DNA of 64,000 nt, from the NCBI RefSeq assembly GCF_036417355.1, contig NZ_CP143889.1:310001-374000 (forward strand), read 5' to 3'. How positions within the stretch are numbered: position 1 is the first letter of the stretch; each line of letters begins with the position of its first letter. The notes beneath the pieces are model-generated. The model worked only from the letters and a program-made list of their open reading frames with translations, was not told the origin of the DNA and did no database searches. Below are positions 3,001 through 16,324 of the stretch, in pieces. The position numbers and the translations under genes are program-made. This DNA comes from Akkermansia sp. RCC_12PD. Lineage in GTDB: Bacteria; Verrucomicrobiota; Verrucomicrobiia; Verrucomicrobiales; Akkermansiaceae.

Positions 3001-5391
3001 TCCTTCCTTGACTACGGAAGTGTTGGTCAGGGCTCCGGTTCCTGCAAACTCATAGCGGGTCGTGGAATTCCGGACCAGTACGGAGAGGGGGGAAACTTCA
3101 GAATCCAGCTGCACGCTGGAGACGGGCACCCCCGCCTGGTCCGTGAAGGATACGGCATGTCCCGCCGTATAAGTGGCGGGAGTTCCCCCATCCGTCCAGA
3201 TATTCTCCGCACCCCAGGCTCCGCTGGCTCCGCCGGCCCACAACAGCATGGGAATTTCAGTGTAAATCAGTTCCCGTCCATTCTGTGAAAGGGAGATGGT
3301 TCCTCCCACGCCATCCGCAAAGGATGCCTGGATGGAAGTAATATTGCTCAGCCCGGTGGTGCTCAGAACAGTCATGCCATTCGTCAGGACGCCGAATTCG
3401 GACAGATCCAGTTTCAATTCCCCTTCCGCGGACAGGGAGAAGTTCCCGTTCATCTGGACGGATGTCCCCGCGCCGCCGGCCAGCGCCAGCGTGCCTCCGT
3501 CCATGTTCAGGTTCCCCGTAAAGAAGGAATCCTGGAACATTTTGACGATGTCAAACCCGGCAACGACCGTATTGGAGAAGGAAATGGCGTGGTCCGAGGT
3601 GCTTCCGTAACCGCCCAGCAGCAGGGAAGACGTTCCCCTGACCGCCCCTTCCGTGACGTTCAGCGTGCTTCCTGCCCGGAACACGGCCTTCTTCACGACA
3701 AGGGAGGCATTTCCGCTGACGACGGACTTGGCGCCTCCGCCTCCGGCGTAAAGGGCTCCTTCATACGTGCCGCCGTCCAGGGTCAGCGTGGAATTGCCGC
3801 CTACCGTTGCGTTCCCCGCACCGCCGCCCCCGGCATAGGAGCCGCCATAAATATTACCCGTGAAAACGGCTCCCGGAGAGGCGATGATGCTCACATTCGT
3901 ATCCTCGGCGATGGAAAAGGCCCGGGTCGTGCTGGTGCCGGTGCCCCCCGCATGGGAACCGCCCACAATACTCTTGACGAAATTGCCGGATGCATTTCCC
4001 AGGTCAATCGTCACGTTGGTGCTTCCGGAGATAGCTCCCCCGGAAGCGGCATTGGTTTCATACGCGCTGCCGCCGATGATGAAGCCCCTGGCCACGGAAT
4101 TGAGGGTGATGGTTTCGTCCGTCTCGCTCTGCATGCTGCGCACGACGACGTAGGTGCTGCCGTCAATGGTGTTGATGGAATTGTGGGCCGCCGTGCCACC
4201 GCCCACCAGGGACCCCTTGATCACGGCATTGCCGTCCACGGACACGTAAACGTCCCCCGTGACGGTTGCGTTCAGTCCGTCCTTATAGTTGCCGCCCACC
4301 ACCCAGTTCACGACCGAATCCCCCTGAATCTGGGTATGGATGTCCCCGGTCACGTTCCACGCGCCGGTACCGCCCCAGTTGTTGGCATAGCTGCCGCCGA
4401 TGATGATGTTGTAATCACCGTTCCTTACATCCGTCCAGATACCTGTGGTGATGGCCGTTCCCTCGGCAGTGGCGCTGGTATTGTAATAGCCGCCGGCCAG
4501 AATCACGCCCGTCAGGCCGTCTCCCGTTCCCGTCACGACATTCACAGAACCGAAGCCGTCCTGCATGGAAGAACCGCGGATGCCGTACAGGGCCATGGTC
4601 TGCTGGTCCGCAAGAGTGCCGGCCGCGGAAGAGGGAGCGCTCCCCAGTCCCCAGGCGGGATCCCACACCGTATCGTAAGCGCCGGAGCCCGTAAACGTGA
4701 TGATGGTTTTTCCGGAGGAATTGCTGATGGTGTACAGTGATTCATCAATGTCCGCCAGCGTGAACCCATTGCCCAGGTTGACACCCAGATCATAAGTTTG
4801 ACCTATCAGAGCGTCCGAACCGTACAGGTCCTGGAATTCCTGGAAAAGGGAAAAGTCGATCAGGCCGGACGTAAACGTTATGCTCTGCAGAACGGAAGAA
4901 ACATTGTTCATGGACGTGTAATACAGGCGGCCGCCGTCCACGGTAACGCTCCCCGTGATGCTCCCCGTGCCGTTGGCGAGAATGCCCATGCCCTCTCCCA
5001 CAGTAAGGGCATTCTGGAAATTCATGGTTCCGGAGGAAGCTGAGATCATGCCGCTGCCGCTTATTCCCGTTACCGTCAGATTGCCATTGCCCGCGTCCAG
5101 CCTGCCTCCGGCAAGCACGGCGTTGACGGTTCCCGCCTTGGAAAGGACCGCCCCGGAATTGACCGTATAAGTTCCCGTGAGCGCCACATTCTCCGTGAGA
5201 TGCACCCAGCCGGACTGTGCCACGAAGTTGCCCGCTCCGGTCATGGAATTGTCAATGACGTCAACCGCATCTCCCGCCGTACCGTAATACGTAATGTACT
5301 GGCTGCCGGAAGTAGTGGTGACGGCCGCGGTTCCCAGGGAACCGGAGGCGTTGATGCCCAGGGAGGTGGAATTCCGGGTGATGGAGATGGT
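1..5391 (-). CDS. Continuation of the giant autotransporter-type passenger domain; runs off the left edge
   Basis: Codons starting at positions divisible by three on the minus strand carry coding sequence from 5391 down to position 1. I translated five separate spots and found no stop in any. The content is repetitive Gly/Thr/Asn/Ser beta-strand sequence with motifs such as LTKRGEGKLTL (near 1260) and TLSGTGTVTLTD (near 150), typical of autotransporter-associated repeats. Together with the upstream part the protein exceeds about 2,140 residues, and neither its C-terminus nor any beta-barrel or sorting domain lies inside the window. Removing one G from the 8-G run (or adding two) would join it to the signal-peptide part. 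No alternative start with a signal peptide is evident, so as written it would not be exported. Confidence 0.75.
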
Positions 5392-6442
5392 CCCCCCCCA
5401 GTTGGTTCTCCGTGTTGGACAGGGTATAATACGTGTACTCACTGTCTGAGCCGCTGATCGTAAAGCCGTCGGCCGCCGTGAGCACCCCCGTGAACTTGAT
5501 ATTCTTGCCGTACTCGGTCGTCATGTTGACGCCGCTTCCGAACGTGGCTTCCCCGGAGAACGTAAAACCGTTGCCGTTGATGGAATTGGCATCGTAGCTA
5601 TAGTACCCGCTGACGGGCGGTCCGTCCTCTACGGTCAGCACCGTATTGTCCCCCATGACGAGTTTCTGTGTCCAGTTGACGTTCCCGGAATACAGGGAAA
5701 GCGTGCCGCTGCTGATTTTAAGGGTGGCGTCCGGAGACGCGGCGGGCGTCAAAGCCGTATTCTTGTTGGAGTTGCCCAGCGTAAAAATCCCTCCCCCCAC
5801 ATAATCCACCGTGATGGAACCGCCGAAACTGCCGCCGTAGGAAGAGGAATCTCCGGTAATGGTCAGGGTAGTGCCTTCCCCGGTGATCAGGGCGGCCACA
5901 TTGTCATGTTCCAGCTTGCTGATGCTGGTGTCCACATTCGCCTGCAGCACGGAAGCCCCCGCCGCATAGCTGTAGCCGCCCAGCCTGATGGTGGCGTTCT
6001 GCGCCGCCAGGGCATGGTTGAGTTCCAGAATATTATTCCGGGTACCGCCTGTCGTGTTGGAATACATGGAAATCACACCGTTGAACGTACCCGGACCATT
6101 CAAAATCAATGAAGAAAGACTGGCGGCGCCACTGGCTACGCGGTTCACCCTCAGAACGGCGTCCGCGGCGTCTCCATTCAAATTCGTGATGGTGGCCGTG
6201 CCCGCTCCGGAAAATTGGAGAGTTGTGGATGCAGTTACGTTTCCTGCGTCATAAGTCACTGAACCTCCGGAAGGAACCGTTATCTGGGTGCCGTCAAATG
6301 TGATATCCGCTCCAAGCGCCGGAGAAAGCGACACGGTAACGGCAATCCCGGCAAGAGCGGTTATAGTAACGGTTCCGACGGTAACTCCGGCAAAGGAAGT
6401 CACCAGTGCGGCCAGCAAACGCAGAGGCAGTTTCAATTTCAT
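5261..6442 (-). CDS. N-terminal part of giant autotransporter-type beta-strand-repeat surface protein (frame interrupted)
   Basis: The 393-codon frame opens with a classic Sec signal peptide: MKLKLPLR, a long hydrophobic stretch, and a likely cut after SPALGA near residue 46. A Thr/Ser/Gly/Asn-rich passenger follows, of the kind seen in autotransporter-associated beta-strand-repeat proteins, which form right-handed beta-helices outside the cell. The genuine passenger sequence ends at an 8-G run (coding strand, 5399 to 5392). After it this frame reads His/Pro/Arg-rich nonsense and stops at 5261. The passenger continues in another frame at 5391. Either the run makes expression phase-variable or the base count is a sequencing artefact. 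No Shine-Dalgarno sequence precedes the start. Export and surface location are inferred from the signal peptide and repeat type; adhesin function is a guess. Confidence 0.8.
   Translation of the reverse strand: MKLKLPLRLLAALVTSFAGVTVGTVTITALAGIAVTVSLSPALGADITFDGTQITVPSGGSVTYDAGNVTASTTLQFSGAGTATITNLNGDAADAVLRVNRVASGAASLSSLILNGPGTFNGVISMYSNTTGGTRNNILELNHALAAQNATIRLGGYSYAAGASVLQANVDTSISKLEHDNVAALITGEGTTLTITGDSSSYGGSFGGSITVDYVGGGIFTLGNSNKNTALTPAASPDATLKISSGTLSLYSGNVNWTQKLVMGDNTVLTVEDGPPVSGYYSYDANSINGNGFTFSGEATFGSGVNMTTEYGKNIKFTGVLTAADGFTISGSDSEYTYYTLSNTENQLGGDHLHHPEFHLPGHQRLRFPGNRGRHHYFRQPVHYVLRYGGRCG
5392..5399 (-). repeat. 8-G homopolymer run at the frame change in the giant surface protein
   Basis: Eight consecutive C on the plus strand (G on the coding strand) fall exactly where the signal-peptide frame and the long passenger frame separate. 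Runs of this length can slip during replication, and in adhesin genes they are a known means of phase variation. Against this, an equally long run at 8672-8679 lies inside an intact trpB. A miscounted homopolymer in the assembly is the simple alternative. Confidence 0.8.
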
Positions 6443-10167: not shown

Positions 10168-11732
10168 GGAGCGTTCTCCTTCCTACGCCGGCGCACACGG
10201 CCTCACGGGCCTTCGCCATGCAGACGGCCAGGTCCATGTGGTCCTCCAGCAGGAACATGGCCACGCCCACATTCAGAATCACCATGTCCATCATGGCGCG
10301 GGGCCCCCTGCCCGCCAGAATATCCTTCAGCACGGCCACCGCCTCCGCCTTGGAATGGACGGCCAGCTCCCCGGGATCACAGGGCTGGATGCCGTAATCG
10401 GCGGGGTCCAGCGTCATGGGCGTCAGCTTCCCGTTGTGCACGATCATCATCTTGGTGGGCCCCAGCGGCGTCACCTCGTCATACCCTCCGGCGCCGTACA
10501 CCACGGCCGCCCTGCGGATATGGGACTGGCTGAGGGTTTCCGCCAGCAGTTCCACCAGTTCCGGACGGGCCACTCCCAGCAGAATGTGGGTGGGGCGCGC
10601 CGGATTGATCAGGGGTCCCAGCAGGTTGAACAGGGTGCGGATGCCCAGTTCCCTGCGGATGGACCCCACGTTGCGGAAGGCGGGATGAAAATTCGGCGCG
10701 AACAGGAAAGCGAAATTGCGTTCGTCCAGCAGGTGCTGCACGTCCTCCGGAGCCACGTCCAGCGGAAATCCCAGCCCTTCCAGAGCATCCGCGGACCCGC
10801 AGGAGGAGGACACCGCGCGGTTGCCGTGCTTCACCACCTTGTAGCCCATGCCCGCCAGCGTCAGGGACGTGGCGGTGGAGCAATTGAAGGAGCTGCGGCC
10901 GTCGCCGCCCGTGCCGACTACGTCAATGCAGTCGCCTTCCAGCCCTTCCACGCGGTTGGCGCGGCCCAGGGCAATGCCCACGGCGTGGGCCATTTCCAGC
11001 GGGGTTTCCCCCTTCATGCGCAGGCCCATCAGGAAGCAGCCCGCCTGGGCCGGCGTCATGCGTCCGTCCATGATATCCGCAAAACCGGCGGCGGCCATGT
11101 CCGCCGTCAGGTCCTGCCCGGCGGCCAGCGTATCCAGAATGCGGTTGATCCGCTTCTCCTTCTGACCGGCGGGAACGACATTGTCCGGAAAATTGCCCAG
11201 AAGCTGGAGACCGTCCGGCGTCAGGATGGATTCCGGATGGAACTGGATGCCCACCCACGGGCGGTCGTTGTAGCGCAGCGCCATAACCTCCCCTTCCGGA
11301 CCGCGGGAAGTGACGGTGAACCGGGGATTCGGTTCATCCTCCTTGGACTGGACCACCAGGGAATGGTAGCGGCCCACGGTCATGGGATTGGGAAGTCCTG
11401 TGAACAGCCCGGCGCCGTCGTGGATAATGTCCGAACTCTTTCCGTGCATCACGTACGGAGCGCGGGAAACCTCCGCCCCGGCAAAATAACCCAGAAGCTG
11501 GTGGCCCAGGCATACGCCCAGCACGGGAACGGCGGCGGGAAGGCGCTTCAGGAACTCCAGGCACAGCCCGGCATTGCGCGGATGGCTGGGGCCGGGGGAA
11601 ATGCACACGGCTTCCAGTTCCGGGCTGGCTGCCAGGTCCAGAATGCGCGGATCGTCGTTCGCATACACCACGGGCTTGCGGCCCAGGGAATAAAACGCCT
11701 GCACCAGATTCCACGAAAAGGAATCGTAATTA

Positions 11733-11749
<17 letters not shown>
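10157..11749 (-). CDS. trpGD: Bifunctional anthranilate synthase glutaminase / anthranilate phosphoribosyltransferase fusion
   Basis: One 530-residue frame carries two enzymes. Residues 1 to about 190 are a class-I glutamine amidotransferase with the triad Cys80 (GVCLGHQ), His171 and Glu173 (FHPES). It supplies ammonia to TrpE. Residues from about 200 are TrpD, with the PRPP-binding GTGGDG motif followed by SSFNCST and KHGNRAVSS. TrpD attaches phosphoribose to anthranilate. The same fusion is known from enterobacteria, but here trpC and trpF are separate. The start overlaps trpE by 17 bases, so the two anthranilate synthase components are probably made in step. Confidence 0.96.
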
Positions 11750-13139
<1,390 letters not shown>

Positions 13140-13164
13140 GGATGGATCATTGTGTAAGTTGAAA

Positions 13165-13205
13165 ATAAAAAAACTGCTTTGACTCTCGGAGGAATCAAAG
13201 CAGTT
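13165..13205 (-). terminator. trp attenuator: intrinsic terminator between trp leader peptide and trpE
   Basis: On the minus strand an 11-bp perfect stem AACTGCTTTGA/TCAAAGCAGTT (arms 13205-13195 and 13182-13172) is followed by seven U. Its 5' arm and loop contain GATTCCTCCG (13196-13187). This segment can instead pair over ten bases (one G-U) with CGGGGGAATC (13256-13247), which lies in the last codons of the leader peptide. That pairing would prevent the terminator from forming. This is the layout of a classical ribosome-mediated attenuator. Confidence 0.88.
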
Positions 13206-13232
13206 CTAGAAAATCGTCATAGCTGAATGCCG

Positions 13233-13340
13233 CTACTGCACATCGGGATTCCCCCGTCCGGACATGGGTACACGCCACCAATAGCCGTTGCCGTAATAAC
13301 GGGTGTTGCTAAAAAAGGGCTGTACTGTGCTGAATGGCAT
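13233..13340 (-). CDS. trpL: trp operon leader peptide (35 codons, tandem Trp)
   Basis: A 35-codon frame, too short to stand out as a gene, runs from ATG at 13340 to TAG at 13233. Codons 21-22 are TGG TGG (13280-13275), preceded by Tyr20. The peptide is aromatic overall, with FF at 9-10 and YY at 15-16. It lies between a consensus promoter and a U-tailed hairpin in front of trpE. A ribosome stalled at the Trp codons leaves CGGGGGAATC (13256-13247) free to form the antiterminator. A ribosome reaching the stop codon would cover it and allow termination. A GAGGAG sequence lies upstream, but it falls before the predicted transcription start, so initiation is probably leaderless or nearly so. Confidence 0.87.
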   Translation of the reverse strand: MPFSTVQPFFSNTRYYGNGYWWRVPMSGRGNPDVQ

Positions 13341-13348
13341 CTGCGCGT

Positions 13349-13377
13349 TTATTACTCCTCTCCCCCGCCCTTGTCAA
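13349..13377 (-). promoter_or_regulatory. Consensus housekeeping promoter of the trp operon
   Basis: TTGACA (13377-13372) and TAATAA (13354-13349) are separated by exactly 17 bases on the minus strand. Transcription is expected to start around 13342-13340, at or within a few bases of the ATG of the leader peptide. Confidence 0.85.
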
Positions 13378-13545
13378 AAAAACTTTTCATCGATGGCAGA
13401 AAAAAATCCAGCCCCCCCTTCTTGCCAGCCGATGAAAGAGAGCCCTTTCCACAGAGTGCGAAAAAGAGAACGTCAAAAAACGGAAGAACCGGCCGCCGGA
13501 ATCTTCACAGGCTCCGAACGCCTGTTTCCGCCCCGGATGCACCGG

Positions 13546-13950
13546 CTACTGTTTCTCTCCCCCCGCACGGCTTTCCATTTCCAAAAGGCGGCATTTGGCG
13601 GCAAGCCCTGCCTCCTGTGAGCGGTATGCCTCCAGCCGGAGGGAAGGATCCGCCTCCAGTGACTTCTGAAACACACGGTATTCCTCTTCACGGAGAGCCA
13701 CAATTTCCTTTTGGAAGGCTATTCCCTCCTTGAGGGAAGCGGCATGGTCGCGACGGAACTCCAGAAGCTGCAATCTGGAGAGAACAGTCTCCGTCCAATG
13801 GCACAATCCGGACTTGTAGCGATCCTTCATCAACTCATCTATCCTGACCAGGATTTGTTCCCGTTCCTGAAGAAGTGATTTCAGCGTTTCCTCTCCCGGA
13901 GAGGCGGAAGCAAGGCATGCCGTCAGCAATAAAAGCAGGGTAGTTCTCAT
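13546..13950 (-). CDS. Small putative lipoprotein, coiled-coil, unknown function
   Basis: The frame extends upstream to 14136, but I choose the ATG at 13950. It gives a clean signal sequence MRTTLLLLLTAC with a lipobox ending at Cys12, and a GGGGAG lies just ahead. The 134-residue product is then charged and helical (Glu/Lys/Arg/Leu-rich, for example LLQEREQILVRIDELM), suggesting a periplasm-facing coiled coil. I recognise no domain. It lies between the hppA terminator and the trp promoter, on the same strand, probably as its own unit. Confidence 0.6.
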   Translation of the reverse strand: MRTTLLLLLTACLASASPGEETLKSLLQEREQILVRIDELMKDRYKSGLCHWTETVLSRLQLLEFRRDHAASLKEGIAFQKEIVALREEEYRVFQKSLEADPSLRLEAYRSQEAGLAAKCRLLEMESRAGGEKQ

Positions 13951-14031
13951 GACTCCCCTTTTAAACCGCAGGAAAACCGAATCAAGAAAAAAAACAGCGT
14001 TCTTCCCTGAACTGCAGATACTTCCCCCATA

Positions 14032-14070
14032 TAAAAAACGGGAGCGCCGGCGGTTACCCGGCACTCCCGT
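14032..14070 (-). terminator. Rho-independent terminator after hppA
   Basis: ACGGGAG-GCCGG pairs with GCCGGC-CTCCCGT (arms 14070-14057 and 14050-14038, one mismatch) and is followed by TTTTTT in the minus direction. It lies 26 bases beyond the hppA stop. Confidence 0.85.
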
Positions 14071-14095
14071 TATCATGATGCAGCAAGCACCCGGC

Positions 14096-16324
<2,229 letters not shown>

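Follow-up and report, generated by a model that had tools for sequence, protein, structure and literature searches.

In Escherichia coli and other Proteobacteria, the trp leader trpL combines tandem Trp codons in a short open reading frame (ORF), a terminator before trpE and an antiterminator that shares the 5' arm of the terminator. A 1:2 protector or pause stem also occurs in attenuators of the E. coli type and is not treated here as defining. Rfam has a Trp leader family, and the phylum of Chlamydia, for which a trpL has been proposed, belongs to the same PVC group as Akkermansia. According to the available text of Naville and Gautheret (2010), leader peptide systems, ermC aside, were known only in Proteobacteria and Actinobacteria, to which the authors added a case of their own in Firmicutes (PMC2965389); neither Akkermansia nor any name in Verrucomicrob- is mentioned in the main text of that paper. 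In the accessible text of the literature searched, we found no description of trp attenuation in Akkermansia or Verrucomicrobiota; the matches included papers on ErmB and on EF-P. The same searches returned no report of a horizontal transfer of trpE between Akkermansia and Desulfovibrio, and none of a Trp leader peptide with a terminator in Desulfovibrio.

Here we describe a trp attenuator in a stretch of 64,000 nt from Akkermansia sp. RCC_12PD (NZ_CP143889.1, positions 310,001 to 374,000), referred to as the window. Judged from comparative sequence analysis, the attenuator is real and well conserved, and it looks functional. The best explanation of the whole is a ribosome-mediated attenuator together with one transfer of the operon from Desulfovibrionaceae, to which we assign a probability of roughly 0.88.

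Leader region and trp operon

The promoter, the 35-codon leader and the TGG TGG pair named in a preliminary description of this DNA were all confirmed, with their positions, by direct reading (Table 1). The hairpin with its run of seven T before trpE was likewise present, but its length had been given as 11 bp; we counted 12 bp within 13203-13168, and 15-16 bp if the T-run pairs in part. Downstream of the attenuator lay a complete trpE-(GD)-C-F-B-A operon, every gene of which was backed by Pfam.

Table 1. Features of the trp leader and operon, in window coordinates
Feature	Position	Strand	Evidence or remark
-35 box TTGACA	13377-13372	minus	Read directly in the sequence
-10 box TAATAA	13354-13349	minus	Read directly; 17-nt spacer to the -35 box; 8 nt 5' of the leader ATG
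trpL leader peptide ORF, MPFSTVQPFFSNTRYYGNGYWWRVPMSGRGNPDVQ	13340-13233	minus	35 codons, stop TAG 13235-13233
Regulatory codons TGG TGG	13280-13275	minus	W-x(0,1)-W kept at 34/35 trpE loci of the genus
Antiterminator 5' arm, CGGGGGAATC	13256-13247	minus	Duplex and permutation test
Antiterminator 3' arm, GATTCCTCCG	13196-13187	minus	Overlaps terminator 5' arm and loop; duplex and permutation test
Terminator hairpin	13206-13171	minus	T-run of seven T 13173-13167; 27 nt 5' of trpE
trpE (anthranilate synthase component I)	13139-11733	minus	PF00425 and PF04715
trpG-trpD fusion	11749-10157	minus	PF00117 and PF02885/PF00591, one frame
trpC	10167-9382	minus	PF00218
trpF	9385-8738	minus	PF00697
trpB	8741-7566	minus	PF00291
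trpA	7552-6767	minus	PF00290

Past trpA, an ORF on the minus strand (5261-6442) resembled a signal sequence at its start and shifted in composition towards its end; it may encode a secreted repeat protein and carry a frameshift. In an Akkermansia record from rabbit (L062:5979-7290), the TrpG and TrpD matches lay about 1.3 kb apart, possibly due to an insertion, whereas they form one fused frame in the window and in Desulfovibrio.

Classical ribosome-mediated attenuation is very probably the mechanism at this locus. RNA polymerase would start at the leader ATG or a few nucleotides off, and a ribosome would translate the leader. With charged tRNA-Trp scarce, the ribosome would stall at TGG TGG and leave the 5' arm of the antiterminator free to pair with the 3' arm once the latter is transcribed; this pairing would break the terminator and allow the polymerase to enter the operon. 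With ample tryptophan, the ribosome would reach the stop codon and cover part of the 5' arm, whereupon the terminator would form and transcription would end before trpE. We infer this response to tryptophan from the sequence. The logic had been recognized in the preliminary description as that of Proteobacteria, and the Trp codons, terminator, antiterminator, spacing and coevolution of related loci strongly supported it.

Conservation in the genus

Loci were scored by a fixed rule: an ORF 10-60 codons long that contains W-x(0,1)-W, followed by a hairpin and a T-run, at most 450 nt from trpE. A high-scoring trpE of the window's type was found in 35 of 76 Akkermansia genomes; the others had weak matches to chorismate enzymes or none, some genomes being incomplete, and tryptophan prototrophy looks patchy across the genus. 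By the rule, leader and terminator were present at 34 of the 35 Akkermansia loci, which include the five weakest of the high-scoring trpE matches. The corresponding counts were 3 of 700 for dinucleotide-shuffled upstream stretches as the chance control, 2 of 20 for trpE loci from other genera of Akkermansiaceae, and 9 of 566 for tiles of the window, two of the nine being the attenuator site. The expectation that the paired Trp codons would be conserved among Akkermansia relatives was thereby borne out, in the form of W-x(0,1)-W with a terminator.

The Trp motif itself varied (WW, WSW, WRW, WQW, WYW, WAW, WLW and WWW). Constraint on the leader peptide appeared weak, with 5 synonymous changes per 21.3 sites and 12 non-synonymous changes per 80.7 sites among 12 close relatives, counts too small to serve as evidence. 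At one locus (L035) the rule picked a spurious frame; the true leader passed the terminator test too. The sole exception in Akkermansia (L027) had no leader and was left out of the promoter and arm tests for that reason. There, a tRNA-Ala gene (L027:1343-1415) lay about 85 nt before the trpE match, with a separate hairpin upstream.

Both matches in other genera look spurious: one (L043) ended where the trpE frame opens, and the other (L055) was a 13-codon TTG frame. A further locus of another Akkermansiaceae genus (L051) had a WW frame 113 nt 5' of the trpE frame and no terminator by the rule. No credible Trp leader was thus found at the 20 trpE loci of other Akkermansiaceae genera. A system common to the phylum Verrucomicrobiota was ruled out, since these genera were without a credible leader and TrpE of this type occurred, among 387 genomes, only in Akkermansia.

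Antiterminator arms and RNA folding

The pairing of CGGGGGAATC with GATTCCTCCG comprised 10 bp, one G-U among them, as the preliminary description had proposed. In a free search, 16 of 17 Akkermansia representatives had the first antiterminator base 17-24 nt past the last Trp codon (45 nt in L025); when the arm was sought 8-40 nt downstream, the distance was 17-24 nt in all 17, with 22 nt in L025. The arm of the window starts 18 nt past the last Trp codon. The end of the stop codon varied between 12 and 48 nt past the last Trp codon in the 17 representatives, and the arm lay within the ORF in the window's group and past the stop codon in most other Akkermansia. Since the distance of the arm is constant while the stop codon varies, the arm appears tied to the Trp codons and not to the stop codon. 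At loci of the Desulfovibrionaceae type, the arm started at 8-21 nt in 28 of 29 representatives and at 57 nt in one (L174), with a median of 16 nt (free search). The outliers L025 and L174 are explained by a competing longer pairing.

Arms and terminators coevolve, judging by a permutation test. The duplex formed with the locus's own arm had a mean of -16.5 kcal/mol in the 17 Akkermansia representatives, compared with -11.4 kcal/mol for permuted terminator arms, and none of 5000 permutations was as low. The ten-base pairing proposed for the window, whose conservation in relatives had been suggested as a check, withstood this comparison. For 29 representatives of the Desulfovibrionaceae type, the means were -16.5 and -13.1 kcal/mol, again with 0 of 5000 as low. 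When arms were swapped over whole spacers, only 3 of the 17 Akkermansia representatives and 4 of the 29 of the Desulfovibrionaceae type had the native terminator arm in first place. This ranking is blunt because the arms group into few similar motifs, while the permutation means on narrower stretches were clear.

Folding of both conformations, suggested as a check in the preliminary description, gave -21.9 kcal/mol for the antiterminator stretch (13262-13182) and -21.0 kcal/mol for the terminator stretch (13221-13168) of the window RNA. The putative antiterminator excludes the terminator and would be set just past a ribosome stalled at the Trp codons. At equilibrium, with the entire leader free, the terminator wins; the choice between the two must therefore be kinetic and made during transcription.

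A competing 1:2 stem between CCCGTT (13303-13298) and GACGGG (13258-13253) had also been considered for the window. The letters are present, but the stem was absent from the minimum-energy folds, and with a predicted upstream pairing of the arm of 0.14 it was set aside as unsupported. Within the window's subclade, this value was 0.25 in L014, 0.19 in L015 and 0.66 in L017. The mean probability of pairing between the arm and upstream sequence exceeded 0.5 in 10 of 17 Akkermansia representatives and in all 15 Desulfovibrio free leaders folded (out of 28 Desulfovibrio-type loci with free leaders). Untranslated window RNA folded into the antiterminator, the arm not being strongly sequestered by anything upstream, so an untranslated leader should read through. 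If this is right, the operon of the window's species would be switched on whenever the leader is not translated, which differs from what is generally understood for E. coli.

Origin of the operon

Named genomes were searched for TrpE with two peptide patterns, and the best 80 matches were taken. Among these 80, the nearest outside Akkermansia came from Desulfovibrio (62, 61 and 56%), followed by two Deltaproteobacteria (51 and 50%) and then by matches of at most 43%. TrpE of other Akkermansiaceae genera was 40-53% identical over the matched part, among the matches listed. TrpE of the window's type was found at E 1e-150 in 125 of 149 genomes from the family of Desulfovibrio L063, which we call Desulfovibrionaceae; it was found in 21 of 387 Verrucomicrobiota genomes, all of them Akkermansia (1 of 197 genera).

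In TrpE trees with outgroups, Akkermansia formed one clade (SH-aLRT 99 in the first tree; 100/99 in the second) nested within Desulfovibrionaceae, and the Desulfovibrionaceae sequences were recovered as one group in 0% of 200 bootstrap trees. The first tree omits 10 rows of Akkermansia and 13 of Desulfovibrionaceae, most of them near-copies, and the second omits 22 further rows (7 Akkermansia, 10 Desulfovibrionaceae-type and 5 outgroup); L138 duplicated the locus L063 and was removed. TrpG and TrpD were encoded in one frame in three Desulfovibrio loci as well (L058, L059 and L063), with 67-68% identity to the window over 530 aa. For TrpC, TrpF and TrpB, the best match among the loci compared was Desulfovibrio L059 (TrpB: 73% over 321 aa). 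Leader and terminator were detected by the rule at 44 of 54 Desulfovibrionaceae-type loci (4 of the 5 named loci and 40 of the other 49). Where the leader was free, this held for 27 of 28 loci of Desulfovibrionaceae and their kin, and the remaining one (L059) has a leader with a terminator loop one base over the limit.

The operon was most likely acquired, with its attenuator, from Desulfovibrionaceae. From the trpE tree, the trpGD fusion and the leaders we infer a single transfer of the operon, as one piece, into an ancestor of Akkermansia. The nested position of Akkermansia TrpE, the near-complete occurrence of the switch at free-leader loci, the agreement with Desulfovibrionaceae in gene order, arm spacing and trpGD fusion, and the lack of a credible leader at the 20 loci of other Akkermansiaceae genera make it very unlikely that the attenuator arose independently in Akkermansia with the enzymes alone transferred or ancestral, even though leader peptides and arm sequences differ strongly among subclades and Trp leaders also precede more distant trpE genes (L064, L067), so that they can arise or survive widely. 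On this comparative evidence, the Akkermansia case is a transferred member of the proteobacterial kind. The earlier remark that no such attenuator had been described in this phylum agrees with the literature searched; with TrpE nested in Desulfovibrionaceae, it does not amount to an independent verrucomicrobial invention. The case suggests that a whole operon moved between phyla with its cis-acting RNA switch, and that the switch, though remodelled in sequence, promoter spacing and folding, persisted at 34 of the 35 loci descended from it.

Trp codons in the tail of tyrA

In Desulfovibrio vulgaris, tyrA adjoins the trp operon, and this supraoperon has been listed with a predicted attenuator (PMC1173090); Trp codons in the tail of tyrA are not described in the available text of that paper. 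We found a TyrA-like match just 5' of trpE at 26 of the 54 Desulfovibrionaceae-type loci (L145, L147-L152, L171-L180, L182-L183, L185-L186 and L188-L192), and none at the other 28 or at the 35 Akkermansia loci in the 412 to 4000 nt upstream that were searched. Both full-length genes tested (L145 and L171) encoded prephenate dehydrogenase by Pfam, and a partial one (L191) gave no match. In 25 of the 26 (the exception being L183), Trp codons stood in the C-terminal tail of the TyrA-like gene, for example DRAQWWWRSHTERGGVRPS in L145, and a terminator by the rule followed the tail in 17 of 26. At seven loci (L172, L173, L176, L178, L182, L188 and L189) the tail ended in WWW or WW and no terminator followed by the rule, so that the Trp codons may predate the switch. 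At L171, a bulged hairpin 5' of a T-rich stretch fell outside the rule's count.

In the first tree, each of the 17 TyrA-type rows diverged before the clade with free leaders and Akkermansia, and the tails are alike (RAQWWWRSHTERGGVRPS in L145 versus AYRWWWRVVDVKGGVRPA in L144). These observations suggest that the leader peptide may derive from a TyrA tail that was set free; the Trp leaders before the distant trpE genes speak against this direction from tail to leader. We give even odds to a course in which the ribosome finishing TyrA, with its WWWR end, senses tryptophan in basal Desulfovibrionaceae, the tail became a stand-alone leader, and this leader entered Akkermansia with the operon, turned leaderless and, in the window's group, has no 1:2 stem. 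In the TyrA-tail form, the 3' end of a structural gene would itself house the attenuator. It suggests a route for the birth of leader peptides, from Trp codons that already ended an upstream gene.

Promoter and predicted leaderless start

The fitted -10 box lay 7-10 nt 5' of the leader ATG in 31 of 34 Akkermansia leaders in a free search, with the ATG set by script at 12 loci and picked by hand at 22. The hand-picking took account of the promoter distance and is thereby biased towards a uniform one. When the search was limited to 6-12 nt upstream, the box was found in all 34. In single-letter shuffles, a mean of 4 and a maximum of 9 of 34 fell within 6-10 nt. The fitted -35 box started with TTG in 33 of 34 leaders (TGCACA in L015), under a score that favours TTG. 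Transcription generally starts 6-9 nt past the -10 box, which would leave a 5' leader of about 0-3 nt; by this promoter model, the Akkermansia leader mRNA should be leaderless. For the Desulfovibrio-type free leaders, in contrast, promoters were fitted at 20 of 28 loci, and the best fit lay 22-36 nt before the ATG in 17 of these. A Shine-Dalgarno-like match of 5-6 of 6 letters occurred in 17 of the 20 versus 4 of the 34 Akkermansia leaders. Shine-Dalgarno-like cores stood 5' of 4 of 41 ORFs in the window against a background of 11%, a weak comparison as the first ATG was taken as the start.

Many Akkermansia trp leaders also had a TATGACAAAA-like stretch about 8-17 nt 5' of the -35 box (loose motif match in 20 of 34). 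It is possibly an activator site or an upstream promoter element.

In Sinorhizobium meliloti, the trpL RNA starts with the leader ATG and acts in trans, according to the available text of PMC7298713. Given that a leaderless start is also predicted for Akkermansia, its terminator might work with constant efficiency while the leader RNA or peptide acts mainly in trans, like rnTrpL and peTrpL; we consider this very unlikely, because only cis control requires a coevolving antiterminator at a fixed distance from the Trp codons. An additional role in trans, besides control in cis, is conceivable.

Searches for other tryptophan switches

No match to TrpR (PF01371) was found in the window's genome; as a control, 2 of 14 genomes matched, E. 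coli included. In 11000-15000 of the window and in eight related loci, neither a T-box nor any other Rfam amino-acid switch came up at E up to 1, and the covariance model of the Rfam Trp leader family gave no match there either. A genome that lacks TrpR must still control its trp operon somehow. Given the missing matches in the sequences searched, TrpR and T-box control were nevertheless rejected, and a tryptophan switch of another kind, be it a TrpR operator, a T-box or another riboswitch, is highly implausible.

The Rfam matches listed for these sequences were few microRNA and sRNA families, far below the cut-offs. At the Desulfovibrio trp locus L058:6953-7047, weak microRNA-family matches appeared on either strand, a pattern expected of a strong inverted repeat. 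Four other loci of the window's genome were searched, namely the regions before hisG, before pheA and before each of two DAHP synthase genes, and none showed a further attenuator; an F-rich frame that precedes one of the DAHP synthase genes had no terminator.

Comparison with known systems

As far as our searches show, neither the place of the attenuator nor its probable transfer has been described before, and the leaderless start predicted for it, the lack of a supported 1:2 stem in the window and the form with Trp codons in the tyrA tail are likewise new. If the ribosome-mediated reading is right, it yields a concrete rule, open to test, for how tryptophan supply is governed in Akkermansia, a medically relevant gut bacterium. 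Like trpL of E. coli and other Proteobacteria, the Akkermansia attenuator has a short ORF with tandem Trp codons, an intrinsic terminator before trpE and an antiterminator sharing the 5' arm of the terminator. It differs in having no Rfam match, a predicted leaderless start, no convincing 1:2 stem in the window and no TrpR.

To our knowledge, the trp leaders of S. meliloti and Streptomyces lividans are unrelated to that of Akkermansia at the operon level. In the available text on S. meliloti trpLE(G) (PMC7298713) and S. lividans trpL1-trpE (PMC8079986), a Trp leader mRNA that starts at the ATG, or is leaderless, is reported from data, whereas in Akkermansia this start is predicted. The trpL proposed between trpR and trpB in Chlamydia likewise has a Trp-rich leader and a predicted attenuator, but in the available text it belongs to an operon of trpR, trpB and trpA, with another leader and with TrpR present (PMC3937554). 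The trp attenuator of the Desulfovibrionaceae type (L058-L061, L063 and L144-L192) shares with that of Akkermansia a homologous operon, the trpGD fusion, a W-rich leader, the arm spacing and the terminator. Most Desulfovibrio free leaders examined differ in a promoter fitted 22-36 nt upstream and a Shine-Dalgarno-like match (17 of 20 each), and all 15 folded have a predicted 1:2 stem; the basal members carry their Trp codons in the tail of tyrA.
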